DNA of 29,009 nt, from the IMG/VR virus record IMGVR_UViG_3300021139_000094, positions 1 through 29,009 of that record. The stretch is one strand, 5' to 3'. This DNA is from a virus. The notes under the pieces are model-generated. The model had not been told where the DNA came from. It did not search any database and saw only the letters and a program-made list of their open reading frames with translations. Shown here piece after piece: positions 11,138-19,518 of the stretch (positions are counted from its first letter, which is position 1; every line of letters begins with the position of its first letter). The position numbers and the translations under genes are program-made.

Positions 11138-11431
11138 ATGTTTTATTACTCAAAATCAACTAAAGGGTTTTATACAGAAGACATTCATGGCGATAATATG
11201 CCGTCTGATGTTGTAGAAATTACTGTCGAACAACACCAAAATCTTATGGCTGGGCAAGCTATTGGCAAAGAAATTACCCCCGATAAAAATGGTAATCCAG
11301 TTTTAACTGATCCAGTAGTAACGCAAGATGTATTAGATTTTAAAGAATCGCAAAAATCAGCTATGGAAAAATTAACTGCACTTGGGTTAACACCAGATGA
11401 AATTGAAGCAGTATTGGGAATTAAATCATGA
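11138..11431 (+). CDS. Tail fibre assembly-like protein
   Basis: A 97-residue protein starting MFYYSKSTKGFYTEDIHGD with a PSDVVEITVEQHQNLMAG element. This Y-rich start followed by a 'that-residue-must-be-considered' D/H-rich strand and a helix with LTPDEIEAVLG fits small phage tail fibre assembly chaperones. The middle PDKNGNPVLTDP is typical of the same group. It is placed directly after the gp53-type fibre and overlaps the next fibre start as ATGA, so it probably helps fold or trimerise one or both fibres. Confidence 0.7.
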   Translation: MFYYSKSTKGFYTEDIHGDNMPSDVVEITVEQHQNLMAGQAIGKEITPDKNGNPVLTDPVVTQDVLDFKESQKSAMEKLTALGLTPDEIEAVLGIKS

Positions 11432-12603
11432 CACAAGCCAATAACGTAGCTATTGAAAGCTCACAGATAAACTCTTCAGGTGTATTGACCGTCCCAGGCG
11501 GTGGTACTGGCTTGTCTACACTTACTACTGGATATATTCCTTTTGGTGCTGGCACAAGTGCATTTGGAAGCTCATCTAACTTGTTTTGGGATAACACAAA
11601 CGCTCGTTTAGGTATTGGTACTTCTAGCCCTAGCGTTCCTTTGCAAACTCTTAATAGCTCTGGTGAAATTGGAGTTATAAGTTCTAGTAATGCTGGTACA
11701 AACTATGCTCTTTTAAGAACTTACAATACTAATAACTCATCAAATTTCAATGATTATGGAACAAGAAGTGATGGTAGTGCTATTATTTTTTCTAGAGCTG
11801 CCCCTACTTCTGGAAACAGAACTTTTACATTTAATTACTCTCCAATAGGAGATATATTTTCTACCGATACTAGCGGAAATTTTTCAGTTAGCACTGGAAA
11901 TTTATTTATTAATGATAGCAGTAATGTTGCAAGCAATCCAAAACTTTATGTATTAGCTGGTAATACCACTGGCAAAGCTGGTGCAATTATTCGTAATTCA
12001 AGCGGATCTGCTGGTCCAGCTTACATGGGATTTCAAGGATATGACTGGGTACAAGGTGCTATTTGGCATGATCGTTCAAGTGGTTATGCTTTATCTTTGG
12101 CAACGAACCCAAACACAACAGACTTAACCATAGGTGGTTGTGTAGCAAGAGTAAATATTACCAATGCTGGATATGTAACAATGCCATATCAGCCATGTTT
12201 TCAAGTATATAGAACTACTTCTGTGAATAGTGGGAATATAGTTGTTTTTGATACAGTATGGTCAAATGTTGGCAGTAATTATAACACTTCAAATGGTAGA
12301 TTTACAGCTCCAACAAATGGAATTTATGAGCTAAGTTGGCAACAAATTGGAAATTCAGTTCCAGATGTTTATAGAATGAATTTATATATAAATGGTTCTC
12401 AATATTCTTTAAATGGTGTTAGTGGAATTCAATCTAGGGCTGTAGTGCCATCTGGTGGTCAATATTCATTTGCAGCATCGTTGGTATATGTTTATATGGG
12501 TGCTGGGGATTATGCACAAATATATTTTAATTCTGATGGCGGAAACGCTTTATATGGTGATAACTCTGGTTATTGCAGATTTTCTGGAAGATTAATGAAT
12601 TAA
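11428..12603 (+). CDS. Tail fibre with C1q-like head
   Basis: A 391-residue fibre. It opens with a short N-terminus and the stalk module (nt 11497-11631), then a variable beta shaft. From about residue 256 it resembles a C1q/TNF-like jelly roll: FQVYRTTSVNSGNIVVFDTV, NYNTSNGRFTAPTNGIYELS, LYINGSQYSLNG, and the end DNSGYCRFSGRLMN. C1q-like domains form trimers and bind ligands, and occur at the ends of phage fibres. Compared with the preceding fibre it has the same stalk and a different head. The start overlaps the assembly gene by 4 bases. Confidence 0.75.
   Translation: MTQANNVAIESSQINSSGVLTVPGGGTGLSTLTTGYIPFGAGTSAFGSSSNLFWDNTNARLGIGTSSPSVPLQTLNSSGEIGVISSSNAGTNYALLRTYNTNNSSNFNDYGTRSDGSAIIFSRAAPTSGNRTFTFNYSPIGDIFSTDTSGNFSVSTGNLFINDSSNVASNPKLYVLAGNTTGKAGAIIRNSSGSAGPAYMGFQGYDWVQGAIWHDRSSGYALSLATNPNTTDLTIGGCVARVNITNAGYVTMPYQPCFQVYRTTSVNSGNIVVFDTVWSNVGSNYNTSNGRFTAPTNGIYELSWQQIGNSVPDVYRMNLYINGSQYSLNGVSGIQSRAVVPSGGQYSFAASLVYVYMGAGDYAQIYFNSDGGNALYGDNSGYCRFSGRLMN
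11497..11631 (+). repeat. Fibre stalk module, copy 3
   Basis: Encodes [20 protein letters not shown] and [18 protein letters not shown]. Bases 11527-11546 are identical to 10525-10544, so the two adjacent fibre genes share enough DNA for recombination. Confidence 0.8.
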
Positions 12604-13159: not shown

Positions 13160-14062
13160 ATGTTTGGGTACGCATCGTTTGCACAATCTCCATTTGCAGC
13201 ACTAGGCGGAAATGCTTTTGTATTTTTCCCTACGGAGAATGTAAACTTTGCGGACTCAGCAACAATAGCAGCTCAGTTTGCAACATCAATTACTGAAGAC
13301 GCTATATGGGCGGATTCAAACACCAATACCTTTGCACTTTTAGAGTCAATTACTGAAAACCTTATTTTTACTGACTCTGCTACGATTGCAGCCGCTTTTG
13401 CAACATCTATTACTGAACCATTTAGCTTTGACGACCAGCGGTTTATTAGTGCCCAGTTTGCTACATCAGCTACTGAAAACTTTAGTTTGGCTGATTCCGA
13501 GTCAATTCGTGCTGATTTTTCTACACCTAAAACTGAAAACTTTAACTTTGCTGATACCCCATCTTCTCGCCATGATTTTGTTCAGTCCATTACTGAGCCG
13601 TTTATTTTTGGCGATATTATCAGCGAACAAAACATTTTCCAGTTCACTATTAGCGAAGGCGAAAGATATGCAGACTCTAGCACCCAACGGTCTACTTTCT
13701 TAGAGTCTCTTACTGAAAACTTTACTTTTGCTGATTCCAGCACCCAGCAATCGGTTTATTACGAAAATATTAACGAGGATTACCAACTGGCGGATTCAAG
13801 TGTCCAACGCTCTGCTTTCTTAGAATCCATTTCTGAAAACTTTAAACTGGCTGATACCCCTACAATTACGGCTCAGTTTGCGGTAAGTATTAAAGAAAAC
13901 GTTAATTTCCTAGCTGTAAACACCTATACTGGCTGGTTTAAAATTGATGACACCGACATCATAAACTGGAATAATATCAATAATATGGGTGGGGGCAACT
14001 GGACAACAGTTATAGACACAGAAGACCCAGGTTGGGCACCAATAAATGATTTTCAAGGATAA
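13160..14062 (+). CDS. Virion protein of eleven 20-residue repeats
   Basis: A 300-residue protein. Residues 1-24 (MFGYASFAQSPFAALGG) form a short anchor. Residues 25-244 are eleven consecutive units of exactly 20 residues with pattern T/S-E-N-F-x-F-A-D-S at the start and an F near position 16, then S-I. Residues 245-300 are W/N/D-rich (TGWFKIDDTDIINWNNINN). The exact period with conserved aromatic, Asp and Glu positions suggests a regular solenoid or fibre shaft. There are no Cys and no enzyme motif. It lies between fibre genes. I recall similar environmental phage proteins with no known function. Confidence 0.7.
   Translation: MFGYASFAQSPFAALGGNAFVFFPTENVNFADSATIAAQFATSITEDAIWADSNTNTFALLESITENLIFTDSATIAAAFATSITEPFSFDDQRFISAQFATSATENFSLADSESIRADFSTPKTENFNFADTPSSRHDFVQSITEPFIFGDIISEQNIFQFTISEGERYADSSTQRSTFLESLTENFTFADSSTQQSVYYENINEDYQLADSSVQRSAFLESISENFKLADTPTITAQFAVSIKENVNFLAVNTYTGWFKIDDTDIINWNNINNMGGGNWTTVIDTEDPGWAPINDFQG
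13232..13891 (+). repeat. Eleven tandem 60-bp coding repeats
   Basis: Eleven in-frame units of 60 bases encode residues 25-244 of the surrounding gene. The units are diverged in DNA but keep their length without a single indel. A partial twelfth unit (KENVNF) follows. Selection on protein structure is the likely cause. Confidence 0.85.
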
Positions 14063-14065
14063 ATT

Positions 14066-14884
14066 ATGGCATCTTCATACACAACTAGTTTAAAGATACA
14101 ACAGATAGGTAACGGCGAACAGTCTGGTGTATGGGGTACAACTACCAATACTAACTGGAACTTAATTGAACAGGCAGTAGCTGGGGTAGTCACAATTACA
14201 ATGGCAAATGCCAATTACACCCTATCAAACCTAAACGGAGTGCTAGACGAAGCCCGTAATATGGTAATAGTAGTTGGCGGTACTAACTCTGGCGTGTATC
14301 AAGTCGTTGCCCCCCTAGTTAACAAGTACTACGTTGTATCAAACCAAACTTCTGGCGGATATGCAATCCAAATAGGTGGTGCAACGGGTTCTATCGTATC
14401 TATACCAAACGGTGTTACAGCTCAGGTTTATTGTGACGGCACAAACTTCTTCTCAGCTTTAACTGGTACTGCTGGTAGTTTTAACGTCAACGGAACTTTG
14501 ACTGCTTCTGGTGTTGCTGACACGGGCTCTTTATCTGCTCAGTCTTTAGCAGTATCTGGTAACTCCACATTTACTGGTACTACAACACATACAGGAACTG
14601 CGACCTTTAACGGTACTGCAAACCACAATAGCACAACGACTGTACCTACTGTAGCTACAAACGACAACTCAACTAATGCTGCTTCTACAGCCCTTGTAAC
14701 TAATAAGATTGCTGCTATTACCAGCATACCAAACGCTAATGCTATTACCAACTCTGGTGGTTGGAGCGTCACTCCATCAGGAACAAAACTTTACTTCAAC
14801 TATAACGGTACTAACGTGGGGTCTTTAGATTCAGGTGGTAACTTCACTTGTACCGGCAACGTAACCGCATACGGAAGCCCATAA
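14066..14884 (+). CDS. Tail fibre-like protein lacking an S74 chaperone
   Basis: A 272-residue protein. The N-terminal module (SSYTTSLKIQQIGNGEQSGV, then WGTTTNTNWNLIEQAVAG) is a common fibre attachment module. The middle is a Ser/Thr/Gly shaft. Near the end are VPTVATNDNSTNAASTALV and SGGNFTCTGNVTAYGSP. In related fibres, as I recall, a GNVTAY-type segment leads into an S74 intramolecular chaperone (DERLK-type start), but here a TAA follows at once and overlaps the radical SAM start. It may be a naturally short fibre or one whose chaperone was lost or replaced. Confidence 0.7.
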   Translation: MASSYTTSLKIQQIGNGEQSGVWGTTTNTNWNLIEQAVAGVVTITMANANYTLSNLNGVLDEARNMVIVVGGTNSGVYQVVAPLVNKYYVVSNQTSGGYAIQIGGATGSIVSIPNGVTAQVYCDGTNFFSALTGTAGSFNVNGTLTASGVADTGSLSAQSLAVSGNSTFTGTTTHTGTATFNGTANHNSTTTVPTVATNDNSTNAASTALVTNKIAAITSIPNANAITNSGGWSVTPSGTKLYFNYNGTNVGSLDSGGNFTCTGNVTAYGSP

Positions 14885-16314
14885 TGCTATTTGAAATACA
14901 CGCAGAAAAGAATGCGCTAGATAAAAAAGTATTTCTCTACGACAACCAAACAAACATCCTTAAAGACTTGGATGGGAACGTCTTTAAATTTTTAGACCAG
15001 CAAGAAAGCCTAGACTACCCACCGGCTACTGTGTTTAGCAAAGACGAGCCTTTAAAAAAGTCCAAACATATCCAGCTGCTTAAAATCCAGCTGGGGCTTG
15101 GGTGCAACTACACCTGTGACTACTGCTCCCAAAAGTTTGTTGAGCGTGCTGAGTCTACGACCCATAAAGATGTAGAAACGTTTCTACAAAAGCTAGATAC
15201 CCTAGAGTTCTCTGAAAAAGTTGGGTTGAAGGTGGAGTTTTGGGGTGGCGAGCCTTTGGTTTACTGGAAAACCCTTAAGCCTTTGGCAGAAGCACTGCGG
15301 GAAAGATTCCCATATGCTAAGTTTTCTATGATTACTAACGGTTCTATTTTGACTGAGGAAGTCATTGACTGGCTTATGATGATGGACTTTGCAGTGTCTA
15401 TTAGCCATGATGGTCCCGGTCAGTCTGTGCGTGGTCCAGACCCATTTGATGACCCAGAAAAGAAAGAACTAATATTAGGGTTTTACCGGATGATGAGCCG
15501 CCTAAAAAAAGGCATCAGCTTTAACTCCATGCTGTCCAAAAATAACCAAAGCCGTAAAGCAATCCATGAATGGTTTATGAACTTAACTGGTAACCCTGAG
15601 ATTGTGCTGGGCGAAGGCACACTGGTTGATGCTTATGATGAAGATGGCATTACTAACTCACTTCTAACCCACCAAGACCACTTTAACTTTAGACGCACTA
15701 CATTTAAAGAAATCTTAGCAAACCACGGCTATATTGGGTTCCAAGCAATTATTGACAAGATTGACAACTTTACCCGTGCTGTCCTATCCCAAACCCCAGC
15801 TAAATATCTAGGGCAAAAATGTGGCATGGATGATGAGCATGTGCTGGCTGTTGACCTACATGGAAATGTGATTACTTGCCAAAACGTATCTGCTGCAGAA
15901 ACAGGTAAAAACGGACAACCCCATTTATCAGGAAACCTAGATGATTACGATAACGTATCCATCACCACATCTACTCACTGGAGTAAACGCTCTGAGTGCC
16001 CATCCTGTCCAGTATTGCATCTCTGTAAAGGAGCCTGCATGTTTCTCGATAACAAGTTCTGGGAAGTCTCCTGCGCCAACGCATACTCTGACAATGTCAC
16101 TTTGTTTGCCCTATCCATCCACAACATGACGGGTTATATCCCTTATATGATTAAAGGTGAGGGTTTACCATTAGAACGGCAAGATATATTTGGTACTATT
16201 TACCAACACGAAGAGAGGCCAGCTAAACGCGTTATACCTATTAAAGTAGTTAGCGACGTAGTTGGTAAAATTGATAACGTTGAAGTTTATGGAAAGGCTA
16301 GGGTAGAAGCATGA
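14884..16314 (+). CDS. Radical SAM/SPASM enzyme, peptide-maturase type
   Basis: A 476-residue enzyme. I chose the ATG at 14884 (TAATG overlap); an extension to 14848 lies inside the fibre gene. Cys74, Cys78 and Cys81 form the CxxxCxxC cluster site with Tyr80, and GGEP at 121-124 is the SAM-contacting motif. The C-terminal SPASM domain is complete: Cys313-x13-Gly327-x4-Cys332, then Cys372-x2-Cys375-x5-Cys381-x3-Cys385 and Cys397, enough for two auxiliary iron-sulfur clusters. This is the layout of sulfatase maturases and RiPP cross-linking enzymes, which act on Cys, Ser or nearby side chains of peptides. I see no separate leader-recognition (PqqD-like) domain. The stop overlaps the Cys-rich gene as ATGA, making its product the most likely substrate (inference). 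Confidence 0.9.
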   Translation: MLFEIHAEKNALDKKVFLYDNQTNILKDLDGNVFKFLDQQESLDYPPATVFSKDEPLKKSKHIQLLKIQLGLGCNYTCDYCSQKFVERAESTTHKDVETFLQKLDTLEFSEKVGLKVEFWGGEPLVYWKTLKPLAEALRERFPYAKFSMITNGSILTEEVIDWLMMMDFAVSISHDGPGQSVRGPDPFDDPEKKELILGFYRMMSRLKKGISFNSMLSKNNQSRKAIHEWFMNLTGNPEIVLGEGTLVDAYDEDGITNSLLTHQDHFNFRRTTFKEILANHGYIGFQAIIDKIDNFTRAVLSQTPAKYLGQKCGMDDEHVLAVDLHGNVITCQNVSAAETGKNGQPHLSGNLDDYDNVSITTSTHWSKRSECPSCPVLHLCKGACMFLDNKFWEVSCANAYSDNVTLFALSIHNMTGYIPYMIKGEGLPLERQDIFGTIYQHEERPAKRVIPIKVVSDVVGKIDNVEVYGKARVEA

Positions 16315-17192
16315 CACTACCATCTTCAGGTCCGATAGCAGTAAGCAATATTAATACCGAGATAGGACAATCTCCTACCTTTACGGATAACCTGTCATTT
16401 TTAAATGGCTTGCTTTTATCACCAGCTAGTTCGCCTAATATGAGTGCGTTCTACAGCAAAGCGTATTTCCAAAACACTACGCAAGGTAACTGCTCAAACG
16501 GCAACTGTACCAACAACTGTAACTGTGGAAACATTCAGTGTAATAACTGTTTTATCTCTGGCTACACCAACTGCGTAAACTGCCAAAGCCAAGCGTACTT
16601 ACAAAATAACTGTAACTGTGGCCCTGCTGGGTATAACTGTGTAACATCACAAACTGCATCTTATAACTGCAACTGCGCATGCAACTGTTCCAAAATTATT
16701 TGTGCCAAGCTTTATGAACAAGGCAATATGGACCCAAATGTATGGGCAGCTGACCAGAAGTATGGCAAATGGTTACGTCAAAATGATAGACGTGTATACC
16801 GAGGCTATATACGTTGGGCTCGTACTGTAACTGCTTGGATGGATGGCAAAGGTCCAGATTGTTTCCTATGGATAAGAAAGGAAGATCGTGCACAAGCTCA
16901 AAAAGAAGCAATTAACAAAATGGCGCTACGGATTGGTATTCCATGGTCTGAACATATGGCTTTCCTCATGGGAGCCCGTCCTCATGACAACTTGCGCGGT
17001 CGCGTACTTATGACTATTGGTGTACCTATTAGCCGTTTGATTGACCATATCCCACATCGTCGTGGACACCGCATTTTGACTTTATGGACTATGTGGGCTT
17101 TGTTCTGGATGAGCCATTGGACCGCATCTGCTATCGTTGCTATTAATAAAAAATTTAGTTTTGAAGGAGTGAAAAAATGGATGAACATATAA
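16311..17192 (+). CDS. Asn-Cys repeat virion-type protein with TM
   Basis: A 293-residue protein. Residues 1-52 (LPSSGPIAVSNINTEIGQ and MSAFYSKAYF) resemble an N-terminal module of marine phage tail proteins. Residues 61-131 hold 16 Cys, 13 of them directly preceded by Asn. After it comes CSKIICAKLYEQG and a W/R-rich domain (AADQKYGKWLRQNDRRVYRG, WMDGKGPDCFLWIRK, IPWSEHMAFLMG) that I recall from other phage virion proteins. About residues 254-279 form a membrane helix (LTLWTMWALFWMSHWTASAI). One more Cys is at 184. Start and end overlap neighbours. A surface or membrane-contacting protein, and a likely substrate for the adjacent modifying enzymes, is inferred; disulfides or metal binding are alternatives. 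Confidence 0.7.
   Translation: MTLPSSGPIAVSNINTEIGQSPTFTDNLSFLNGLLLSPASSPNMSAFYSKAYFQNTTQGNCSNGNCTNNCNCGNIQCNNCFISGYTNCVNCQSQAYLQNNCNCGPAGYNCVTSQTASYNCNCACNCSKIICAKLYEQGNMDPNVWAADQKYGKWLRQNDRRVYRGYIRWARTVTAWMDGKGPDCFLWIRKEDRAQAQKEAINKMALRIGIPWSEHMAFLMGARPHDNLRGRVLMTIGVPISRLIDHIPHRRGHRILTLWTMWALFWMSHWTASAIVAINKKFSFEGVKKWMNI
16491..16703 (+). repeat. Asn-Cys repeat region
   Basis: Codes for residues 61-131 of the gene at 16311. Cys at 61, 66, 70, 72, 77, 80, 88, 91, 101, 103, 110, 120, 122, 124, 126 and 131. All but those at 77, 124 and 131 follow Asn. Gaps are irregular (2 to 10), so it is a dipeptide bias and not a fixed-period tandem repeat. Confidence 0.9.
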
Positions 17193-17587
17193 TCCAACAA
17201 ATCCCCCCAGTAGAGGAAATTATCCCCGACGCACTAAAGGAAAAGGTTTCTCCTTATAAAAATATTAAGCCCGAAGAAGTGGCTGCGTATAGAGATTTTG
17301 TCGTCCATTACTTTGATAACCAGATGAACCGTGACATTTTGATGTTGCCAGAAACTGACAAAGTGCGGATGTTCCAGATGCTGCAAGACTATGCTGATGT
17401 GCTAGAGAAGATTTTTCACCCCGGCATTCCTATCCTTGAGCATATTTTAGGTAAACGCTGGGCAGCGGCAAATGCAAACCCACACGCAGGTATTAACTAC
17501 GACTACGACTGCGAGATTATTCGTCAATATGATGCTTGGAAAGCAGTACAAGAAACAGCTAAAGTAGATGACGAACCTCAAAGTTAA
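17177..17587 (+). CDS. Unknown acidic protein in the modification block
   Basis: A 136-residue protein with GAAGGAG 7 bases upstream, overlapping the previous gene by 16 bases and the next by 20. It is mostly helical: PEEVAAYRDFVVHYFDNQM, ETDKVRMFQMLQDYADVLEK, HPGIPILEHILGKRWAAANA and YDCEIIRQYDAWKAVQETA. It contains no Cys cluster, cofactor motif, signal peptide or membrane segment that I can see. I do not recognise the family. Its fixed place between the Cys-rich protein and three oxygenases suggests an accessory or substrate-presenting partner, or a fibre chaperone. Confidence 0.55.
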   Translation: MDEHIIQQIPPVEEIIPDALKEKVSPYKNIKPEEVAAYRDFVVHYFDNQMNRDILMLPETDKVRMFQMLQDYADVLEKIFHPGIPILEHILGKRWAAANANPHAGINYDYDCEIIRQYDAWKAVQETAKVDDEPQS

Positions 17588-18227
17588 CCCTATATGGGGT
17601 AGCCCTGCTTGGGAAATGTTTCTCCCATTTAATGAAGGCTTTAATGAGGACTTGCTAAAAGAGCTGCATTCTATTGGCTCGGACATTGCTTTTGGTTTAG
17701 ATGACAGACCACAAGATAGCCTTTGGGATTACGACACTCCTTGCTTAAGCCTACTAAAAAAGACAATCGTAGCCCATGTAACTGCGGTGTTGCGTTCTGC
17801 TATTCCAGAAGCTAAAGAGCTTAATATGTCGGTGGAGTCTCATATGTGCTGGCCTAACGTACGGGAACCGGGAGAAACTTTAGAAGTTCATGCGCATACT
17901 GACTCTACTATTGCTTGTACTTACTTTGTTAAAACCCCTGAGAATTGCGGTGACTTAGTATTGTTTGAAAGCCGCGATGCAATTAACTGGGAAAAAGGAT
18001 GCCTTAACCCAGATGCCAGTATGAAGGAAAGACGCATTAAACCAACGGCAAACAAGCTAGTATTTTTTCCATCTTACATTTTGCATACAGTAGAAGAAAA
18101 TAAGTCTGATGATTTGAGGGTAACTATTACTTGCGACCTAAAGAAAGTTATTGATAAAACTGCGCCTAACGCCATCGTGCTTAAAAGTTGGGCAGACAAA
18201 ATGGTGAAGCTATGTTCAGAAAACTAA
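17568..18227 (+). CDS. Fe(II)/2-oxoglutarate oxygenase 1
   Basis: A 219-residue double-stranded beta-helix protein. The iron ligands are visible as His110-x-Asp112 (EVHAHTDSTIACTYFVKTP) and His173 (KLVFFPSYILHTVEEN); Arg184 is placed to bind 2-oxoglutarate. The HxH start, the YFVKTPENCGDL strand and the FFPSYxxHxV strand match putative 2OG-Fe(II) oxygenases of the PF13759 type. Such enzymes hydroxylate proteins or small molecules using O2. The substrate is unknown. It is translated by overlap with the unknown gene before it and with the next oxygenase (16 bases), so they were probably kept as a unit. Confidence 0.8.
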   Translation: MTNLKVNPIWGSPAWEMFLPFNEGFNEDLLKELHSIGSDIAFGLDDRPQDSLWDYDTPCLSLLKKTIVAHVTAVLRSAIPEAKELNMSVESHMCWPNVREPGETLEVHAHTDSTIACTYFVKTPENCGDLVLFESRDAINWEKGCLNPDASMKERRIKPTANKLVFFPSYILHTVEENKSDDLRVTITCDLKKVIDKTAPNAIVLKSWADKMVKLCSEN

Positions 18228-18727
18228 AGCATTTTTTTCACAATTTAGAATACACGCAAGGTCAAGAGAAGATTAACTACAGTGACCTGATTAGATATTA
18301 TGAAACCAATCTTACTCAAGGCGGGGTTTTGAACATATTACCGCTGCGCTACCGCCCAGATTTTCAGTTATCCCTTATGCAAATAGAAGGTGCGGTTCCT
18401 CCGCATACTGACAGTGAAGTTAAGACGTCAATTAACTTTTATATAGACCCAGGTGTTTATATGACTACGTTTTACAGCCCACGACCCGGAGCAAAAACTA
18501 CGCAGGTTGCAGGTCAAACCAACGGTTATGTCTATGAAATGCCAGACCTTTTAAATCGTGGTACGTTTATTGCTAACGCTGGTGATGGCTGGGTTCTTAA
18601 TGTTTCAGCAGTACATGGGGTTCAGCCAGTATCAAAAGTTACTAGACGGACTGCGCTTTGTCTAGCCACAGATAAACATGATTTTGATGCTGTAATTGAA
18701 ATGCTAACTGAGACAGGAAACGTCTAA
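18212..18727 (+). CDS. Fe(II)/2-oxoglutarate oxygenase 2 (small)
   Basis: A 171-residue protein. The ATG at 18212 is chosen; an earlier TTG at 18188 would add eight residues inside the neighbour. His65-x-Asp67 (GAVPPHTDSEVKTSINFYID) and His135 (DGWVLNVSAVHGVQPV) are the likely iron ligands, with Arg145 or Arg146 the 2-oxoglutarate partner. The strands around them fit the beta-helix core; the protein is near the minimum size for the family and has an N-terminal helical segment. I cannot name a subfamily. It ends in TAATG with the third oxygenase. Confidence 0.7.
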   Translation: MFRKLKHFFHNLEYTQGQEKINYSDLIRYYETNLTQGGVLNILPLRYRPDFQLSLMQIEGAVPPHTDSEVKTSINFYIDPGVYMTTFYSPRPGAKTTQVAGQTNGYVYEMPDLLNRGTFIANAGDGWVLNVSAVHGVQPVSKVTRRTALCLATDKHDFDAVIEMLTETGNV

Positions 18728-19518
18728 TGTTTTACGAAGAACTCGATTGCTTAAAGATTGACCATGGTCGTCTTTTGTTTAATTTGCATAACCACGTATT
18801 TCCTTTGGGCAAACAGATCATTCAAGGAGAAGAATATGAAACACCGGCTTATCATGGCTTTGGCGGCTGGTCTATTACTTCCCGTACTGGTCATTGGAGA
18901 GATGGTTGGGATTTTTTCCAGAACGATGAAGGCAAAGCAATGGAAGTTTATTTTCCTAAAAATGACAATAACTTCAAAGCCCTCAAGTTTTTTGACATTG
19001 CTCACTCGATGGAACACAAGAATCCGACAGAGGCATGTGTTGGAGAGTTTGCGTATATCGTTAACCAAATGGAAGATTTAGGGTTATACCCCCGCCGTGT
19101 GCGTGTAACTTGCTTAAAAGCTGGTGCTAAGTCTTTGGTTCATAAAGATGCGGACGATGGAGAGTATATGGCACGTATCCATATCCCCTTGATTACAAAC
19201 AAAAAATGTGTTTTCATATGTGATGGCGTTAACCTCCATATGGAAGTTGGTAAGGTATATGCAGTATGGGTTAATACTTGGCATCAGATTCGTAATGACT
19301 CTAATGAAGACCGCTACCACCTTATATGCGATTTTTACGATACCAAAAAGATTACCAAGACCTTTAAGTACGAAGGTGATATTACCCAGCTAGAAGACCA
19401 TGCAAAATGGATGCGCCAAAAGATTGATGAAGCGGTAATAGAACCAGAATTGCTAGCTAAGTTTGAAGAAGTACGGCAGTCTTTTATTACAAAACCCAAA
19501 CATGAAAAAAATATTTAA
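18727..19518 (+). CDS. Aspartyl/asparaginyl beta-hydroxylase-like protein
   Basis: A 263-residue protein. The core His139-x-Asp141 (SLVHKDADDGEYMARIHIPL), then GKVYAVWVNTWHQIRND with His186, and Arg196 in DRYHLICDFYD match the aspartyl/asparaginyl beta-hydroxylase family (PF05118 type) including its RIHIPL strand. In animals that family hydroxylates Asn or Asp within Cys-rich EGF-like domains; whether this one uses a protein is unknown. It starts in a TAATG overlap, and a holin candidate begins within its last codons. Placed after the Asn-Cys protein and two other oxygenases, it fits a modification cassette. Confidence 0.8.
   Translation: MFYEELDCLKIDHGRLLFNLHNHVFPLGKQIIQGEEYETPAYHGFGGWSITSRTGHWRDGWDFFQNDEGKAMEVYFPKNDNNFKALKFFDIAHSMEHKNPTEACVGEFAYIVNQMEDLGLYPRRVRVTCLKAGAKSLVHKDADDGEYMARIHIPLITNKKCVFICDGVNLHMEVGKVYAVWVNTWHQIRNDSNEDRYHLICDFYDTKKITKTFKYEGDITQLEDHAKWMRQKIDEAVIEPELLAKFEEVRQSFITKPKHEKNI

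Follow-up and report, generated by a model that had tools for sequence, protein, structure and literature searches.

Radical SAM/SPASM enzymes paired with alternating-cysteine tags on phage tail-fibre-type proteins: a candidate virion-protein maturation cassette

Background

SPASM-type radical S-adenosylmethionine (SAM) enzymes that act on dedicated, neighbouring Cys-rich substrates are already known. In ranthipeptide maturation (PapB/freyrasin, the streptococcal Cys-Asn ranthipeptide and CteB) the Cys-rich substrate is encoded adjacent to such an enzyme, and QhpD, likewise a SPASM radical SAM enzyme, joins Cys to acidic residues within a subunit of the protein quinohemoprotein amine dehydrogenase and not in a natural-product peptide. 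Ranthipeptides provide the precedent for S-C-beta links of Cys to Asp and Asn, and intra-protein thioethers are known from QhpD (PMC11002830). Here, a six-gene interval (positions 14884-19518) of a possibly incomplete IMG/VR virus record of 29,009 bases (the window, meaning the whole stretch of DNA that was analysed) was examined, in which a radical SAM/SPASM enzyme gene adjoins the gene of an Asn-Cys (NC) protein, its putative substrate, and genes resembling 2-oxoglutarate (2OG)-Fe(II) oxygenases follow.

The system differs from ranthipeptide maturation in that the putative substrate is a phage fibre or virion-type protein of about 75-620 amino acids (aa) with a usually C-terminal tag and no leader found, and in that the enzyme scores far below the PapB cut-off. 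QhpD differs from it in acting on a bacterial enzyme subunit instead of a virion protein, and has no alternating-Cys run. Proteusins such as polytheonamide also combine radical SAM and 2OG enzymes on an Asn-rich substrate, whereas here the enzyme is of the SPASM type, the Cys-rich tag sits on a structural protein and the nitrile-hydratase-like leader is missing (no Pfam or NCBIfam match to the proteusin NHLP leader in the NC protein). Polytheonamide had served as the model in the original prediction for this DNA; it fits poorly, since the enzyme has a seven-Cys SPASM domain and, among named families, stands closest to PapB and QhpD, which form thioethers, and to further SPASM peptide maturases.

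A virus that hydroxylates its own virion protein has a parallel in Mimivirus L230, reportedly a lysyl hydroxylase for virion collagen, although that is a eukaryotic giant virus using a lysyl hydroxylase and no radical SAM enzyme. A literature search, with most subscription papers and preprints outside its reach, found no description of a phage radical-SAM tail-fibre tag system. New here are phage fibre tips as the proposed class of substrate, a tag of alternating Cys and the repeated association with 2OG oxygenases.

Pairing of enzyme and tag

IMG/VR was scanned, blind to the enzyme, for DNA encoding NCNCxCNC. The string counted as part of a real open reading frame (ORF) when that ORF spanned 100 aa or more, at least 4 kb of downstream DNA was needed for the test, and the enzyme was scored where the same strand carried a phrog_1802-type gene no more than 5 kb away. 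The collection scans used exact short words, and their counts are samples and not totals. The enzyme was present at 28/28 tagged real ORFs (25/25 non-redundant), against 1/27 for the same DNA string outside a real ORF, where the exception (L144) is cut by a contig end (Fisher p 8e-15). With at least 3 kb downstream the corresponding figures were 35/36 and 1/37. Conversely, a tagged protein was found within 4.5 kb in 97 of 103 non-redundant enzyme loci flanked by 3 kb or more of DNA to either side.

For fourteen tagged ORFs the local stretch contained no enzyme. A search of the whole records located it in seven; the remaining seven were three at a contig edge, L196 (a 10.9-kb fragment), L142, L235 and L139. 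L196 encodes a 2081-aa phage protein (3914-10156) that contains a NCNCACNCACDC stretch internally, and the enzyme was not found in the fragment. The radical SAM and Cys-rich genes, checked for occurring apart from each other, co-occur, and the pairing is general and not local to the window.

The tag and its carrier proteins

After masking of the Cys-dense parts, the tagged proteins formed six groups without mutual matches, so that the tag is the feature they share. The carriers include collagen-bearing and other tail fibres, the LPSSGPI-SKIIC type of the window, short gut-phage proteins (L143, L181) and Hint-bearing fibres. The residue before Cys in alternating runs (n=422) was Asn in 290 cases, Ala in 78 and Asp in 36. 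Of 88 runs, 50 ended 12 or fewer residues from the stop codon, 25 lay directly before a SKIIC domain and 8 directly before a Hint domain. Where a single Cys-rich virion protein had been predicted, the pairing proved real and the conserved unit broader: an xCxC tag (x being Asn, then Ala and Asp), mostly C-terminal on diverse tail fibres.

In Hint fibres the tag is placed just before the Hint Cys. Hint domains are capable of self-cleavage, and the position suggests that the tag could in this way become a new, exposed C-terminus. Regarding features of precursors of ribosomally synthesised and post-translationally modified peptides (RiPPs), the tagged proteins are mostly structural and show no leader, and cleavage is possible in the Hint versions.

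A thiolate-rich CxCxC tag might itself bind a metal or Fe-S cluster, or form a disulfide knot, at the trimer axis, with some other part of tail or host as the enzyme's target; metal binding is known from fibre tips. This is unlikely, as the tag without the enzyme is absent from nearly all testable loci and the tag is the only feature common to the neighbouring proteins.

Several variants were observed beside the main tag type. Gut phages (L143:2386-4173 on the minus strand, L181 and L242) carry a very divergent phrog_1802 enzyme and a protein with CQxCQ repeats that ends in NCNCDCNCNCSDDS; this is a Cys-periodic tag of anaerobes parallel to the main one. Gut-phage enzyme copies matched phrog_1802 at 2.5e-35 and 4.8e-32. 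Loci of Parasutterella muris (L324:4662-6058) contain CSYCSYCTYCSQC repeat ORFs near the enzyme. In most of the distant clades, a protein of about 270 aa without a known family (cluster 'cla'; L140:3448-4260 and about 50 other loci) is encoded between the tagged fibre and the enzyme, and is possibly an adaptor or chaperone.

Selection on the repeat and natural controls

The NC protein of the window (293 aa, plus strand, 16311..17192; its ATG overlaps the radical SAM stop as ATGA) contains 17 Cys, and the 13 predicted NC dipeptides were counted in full, all in a region predicted to be disordered (residues 59-126, 16485..16688). This number exceeded all shuffles, both of the whole protein (mean 1.8, maximum 8) and of the NC region alone (mean 4.0, maximum 9). 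In comparisons with six relatives, Cys codons changed the amino acid in 3/102 cases, with about half altered synonymously, and Asn before Cys changed in 5/78, against 96/232 for the other residues of the region. The repeat is under selection at the protein level, Cys and Asn being kept, and an origin as a DNA microsatellite is ruled out by the synonymous variation at Cys codons. The protein is a conserved partner of the radical SAM enzyme in 35/37 near-clade loci.

It had also been called a virion-type protein. No Pfam, PHROG or NCBIfam family matched the NC protein itself, and a fold search gave no PDB match below E=0.5; the designation draws on relatives bearing the same kind of tag, which are tail-fibre proteins, the PHROG matches of tagged proteins from other clades being to tail fibres. 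By this comparison the window protein may be of the virion type.

Its C-terminal all-helical domain (CSKIICxKLY..., hence SKIIC; 16686..17189) offered a natural control. In other phages SKIIC follows a poly-Gly linker or a proline/arginine stretch in place of NC, and then occurs without the radical SAM gene: when non-redundant loci with 4 kb or more of upstream DNA were compared, the enzyme was found in 28/28 with NC and 0/3 without. Nor was there a 2OG match in the surroundings of the non-NC versions. In Synechococcus phage SynMITS9220M01 the SKIIC domain occurs without NC, and the enzyme is missing from all 190 kb of the genome; Providencia phage PSTNGR1, with an LPSSGPI start and Hint but no NC, gave no match to the enzyme. 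The SKIIC domain as the cause of the link to the enzyme is rejected on the strength of the enzyme-free poly-Gly versions.

Relatives were found in prophage-like loci of Limnohabitans, Polynucleobacter, Paraburkholderia, Burkholderia, Rhodospirillales, Magnetospirillum, Thalassobacter and Parasutterella, among others, and in the cultured Achromobacter phages JWF and 2-1. The radical SAM and oxygenase genes could be morons hitch-hiking with a tail module and not acting on the tag, given that a single operon-like block contains all the genes and that the radical SAM tree keeps the SKIIC clade together. This reading is highly improbable: the pairing recurs with unlike tagged proteins, in both gene orders, in different host groups and with enzymes at 27% identity, and loss of NC coincides with loss of the radical SAM and oxygenase genes.

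The radical SAM/SPASM enzyme

The enzyme of the window (476 aa, plus strand, ATG at 14884 to stop at 16314) is assigned to the radical SAM/SPASM superfamily by its profile matches (PF04055, E=2.2e-11; phrog_1802, E=4.5e-61). As predicted, all cluster Cys are present: the core CX3CX2C and seven SPASM Cys, invariant or near-invariant among 16-19 diverse homologues. The SPASM pattern CX9-15GX4C...CX2CX5CX3C...C was found in 99/103 enzyme loci, and no conserved Cys beyond the core and SPASM ligands was seen in the homologue alignments. The nearest NCBIfam models were PapB, QhpD and the geopeptide and Cys-rich-peptide maturases, all far below cut-off; the enzyme falls outside both PapB (NF047865, 71.9 against 340 bits) and anSME (TIGR03942, 54 against 349 bits). 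An AlphaFold2 model (pLDDT 85; single-chain prediction, with the JWF row left out of the alignment) matched anSMEcpe best in Foldseek, followed by TigE, ChlB, CteB and SuiB.

With anSME as the closest solved fold, and an enzyme that acts on Cys in a protein, the tag Cys might be oxidised to formylglycine, and the resulting row of aldehydes could bond covalently to amines on the host surface. The JWF copy is indeed annotated as a sulfatase-maturating enzyme, but we regard this alternative as unlikely. Asp277 of anSMEcpe, after the second SPASM Cys, is the proposed base; this position was Gln in 92, His in 6, Pro in 1 and Asp in 0 of 99 enzymes. The extra Cys of anSME between the first two SPASM Cys was absent from all 99, as in CteB, and no CxPxR-type motif is present. 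With these fewer Cys ligands than in anSME, auxiliary cluster I would have an open site as in CteB. In this ranthipeptide synthase the open site can hold the substrate thiolate.

Epimerisation of the alternating Asn or Cys is very unlikely. It would yield an alternating L/D strand (a beta-helix), hydroxylated by the 2OG enzymes, and a proteusin-like tip or pore; the strict Asn alternation resembles the alternating Asn of polytheonamide, and 2OG enzymes do accompany the tag. Known radical SAM epimerases, however, use an additional Cys as hydrogen donor, for which no conserved candidate exists beyond the core and SPASM ligands, and the strict retention of Cys would be left unexplained.

A second SPASM or radical SAM gene lies between the tagged fibre and the first enzyme in L214:5734-6456, L280, L303:4361-5428 and L320, and several SPASM-like genes stand in tandem in L321 and L322.

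Oxygenases

Three oxygenases with intact HxD...H residues had been predicted as part of the cassette. The first, ox1 (17568..18227, plus strand), matched PF13759 above cut-off (E=1.4e-17) and phrog_81, but the conserved pair of its family is HxH, Asp being less than 95% conserved. HxD...H is conserved in the other two families: ox2 (18188..18727, plus strand, starting at TTG 18188 or ATG 18212), whose match to PF03171 (0.008) is below the Pfam cut-off, and ox3 (18727..19518, plus strand), of the Asp/Asn beta-hydroxylase family (PF05118, E=1.6e-11, above cut-off).

Among 80 relatives of a neighbouring structural gene, the enzyme, the NC protein, ox2 and ox3 occurred together in the same 3, and all four were missing from the remaining 77. 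Starting from ox3 alone, a search found the enzyme and the NC protein in 21/21 loci with enough upstream DNA; a viral scan from ox2 gave at least four loci, its search words being too strict. Genes of 2OG type lay within 6.5 kb of 73/103 enzyme loci against 8/103 control contigs (3/43 and 5/60), a comparison that is somewhat favourable because the 2OG hidden Markov models were partly built from the same loci. That the 2OG genes are unrelated passengers is rejected by the ox3 co-occurrence, the backbone relatives and these counts. Across the blind scan, the backbone relatives and ox3 search, the 2OG counts and the SKIIC controls, the radical SAM gene, NC protein and oxygenases behave as the co-inherited cassette that had been claimed.

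The set of three is typical of the window's own clade (38 enzymes), to which that part of the prediction applies; other clades have other 2OG genes or none. An absence of 2OG genes from the far clades was rejected, as other 2OG families were located there between fibre and enzyme. Loci without 2OG-like genes include gut phage L143 and the Parasutterella prophages L322-324. Since 2OG genes are near 73/103 loci and missing from the others, the oxygenases are a frequent but dispensable, accessory partner, and their distribution would fit an oxygen-dependent step used by aerobes only.

Proposed mechanism

We read the interval, with a probability of about 0.6, as a dedicated maturation cassette for a phage tail-fibre-type virion protein, introducing thioether links and hydroxylation at the tag. 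The substrate would be the xCxCxC tag (x being Asn, less often Ala or Asp), usually at the extreme C-terminus of the fibre or before a Hint or SKIIC domain. The SPASM enzyme would bind the tag Cys, its auxiliary cluster I apparently having an open site. After hydrogen abstraction by the 5'-deoxyadenosyl radical, the Cys sulfur would most likely be joined to a neighbouring carbon (C-beta or C-alpha of Asn/Asp), so that successive thioether cross-links would arise, either inside one chain or linking the three chains of the fibre tip. In aerobic hosts, 2OG-Fe(II) oxygenases may further hydroxylate the tag, plausibly at Asn/Asp, and the outcome would be a rigid host-contact tip resistant to reduction. 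The alternating Cys of a beta-strand would all point to the same side, and links between chains of a trimeric tip are a matter of speculation.

Thioether formation on the tag Cys is considered the most likely chemistry because of the open auxiliary site, the lack of an epimerase-type Cys donor and the known Cys-Asp, Cys-Asn and intra-protein thioethers. The best NCBIfam neighbours, PapB and QhpD, are thioether formers, and the structural neighbour CteB is a ranthipeptide synthase.

Several points weigh against this proposal. All NCBIfam scores are far below their cut-offs and the chemistry is not readable from family, the top Foldseek match is a formylglycine-forming anSME and not a thioether synthase, and links between adjacent residues of an alternating CxC run leave tiny rings only. 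No leader peptide or RiPP recognition element was recognised. Six of the 103 enzyme loci have no tag within 4.5 kb, and L142 (47 kb), L235 (132 kb) and L139 have a tagged ORF with no enzyme in the longer record.

It is probable that many tailed phages chemically remodel their own host-contact tip. A fuller version is put forward tentatively, at slightly under even odds: that a radical SAM enzyme, in aerobes with 2OG hydroxylases, builds a covalently cross-linked, hydroxylated Cys fibre tip, possibly stapling three chains, that infectivity depends on radical chemistry carried out while in the previous host, and that this is widespread. A cross-linked tip, if demonstrated, would be categorically new biology: phages would use radical chemistry to cross-link the proteins by which they themselves contact the host, and virion maturation would have a further layer, so far undescribed. 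A function would follow for phrog_1802 and for some 2OG oxygenase genes common in environmental phages. Peptide engineering would gain an enzyme and substrate that can be tested as a pair, the substrate being a simple repeat, and work on receptor binding may overlook the active tip where fibres are expressed in the absence of their partner enzyme. The cultured Achromobacter phages JWF and 2-1 make the question testable now.

Gene layout of the window

The six genes are arranged head to tail, and the ORFs are as originally described: the SPASM enzyme stop/start-coupled to the NC protein, one further gene and three oxygenase-like genes. The further gene encodes a 136-aa protein (17177..17587, plus strand) that is present in 17/37 near-clade loci. 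Elsewhere in the window, a protein encoded at 13160-14062 is built of repeated TENFxFADS-like units, and one at 11428-12603 has a C1q domain at its C-terminus (PF00386, E=5.9e-10), a fold that trimerises and is unusual in phages.

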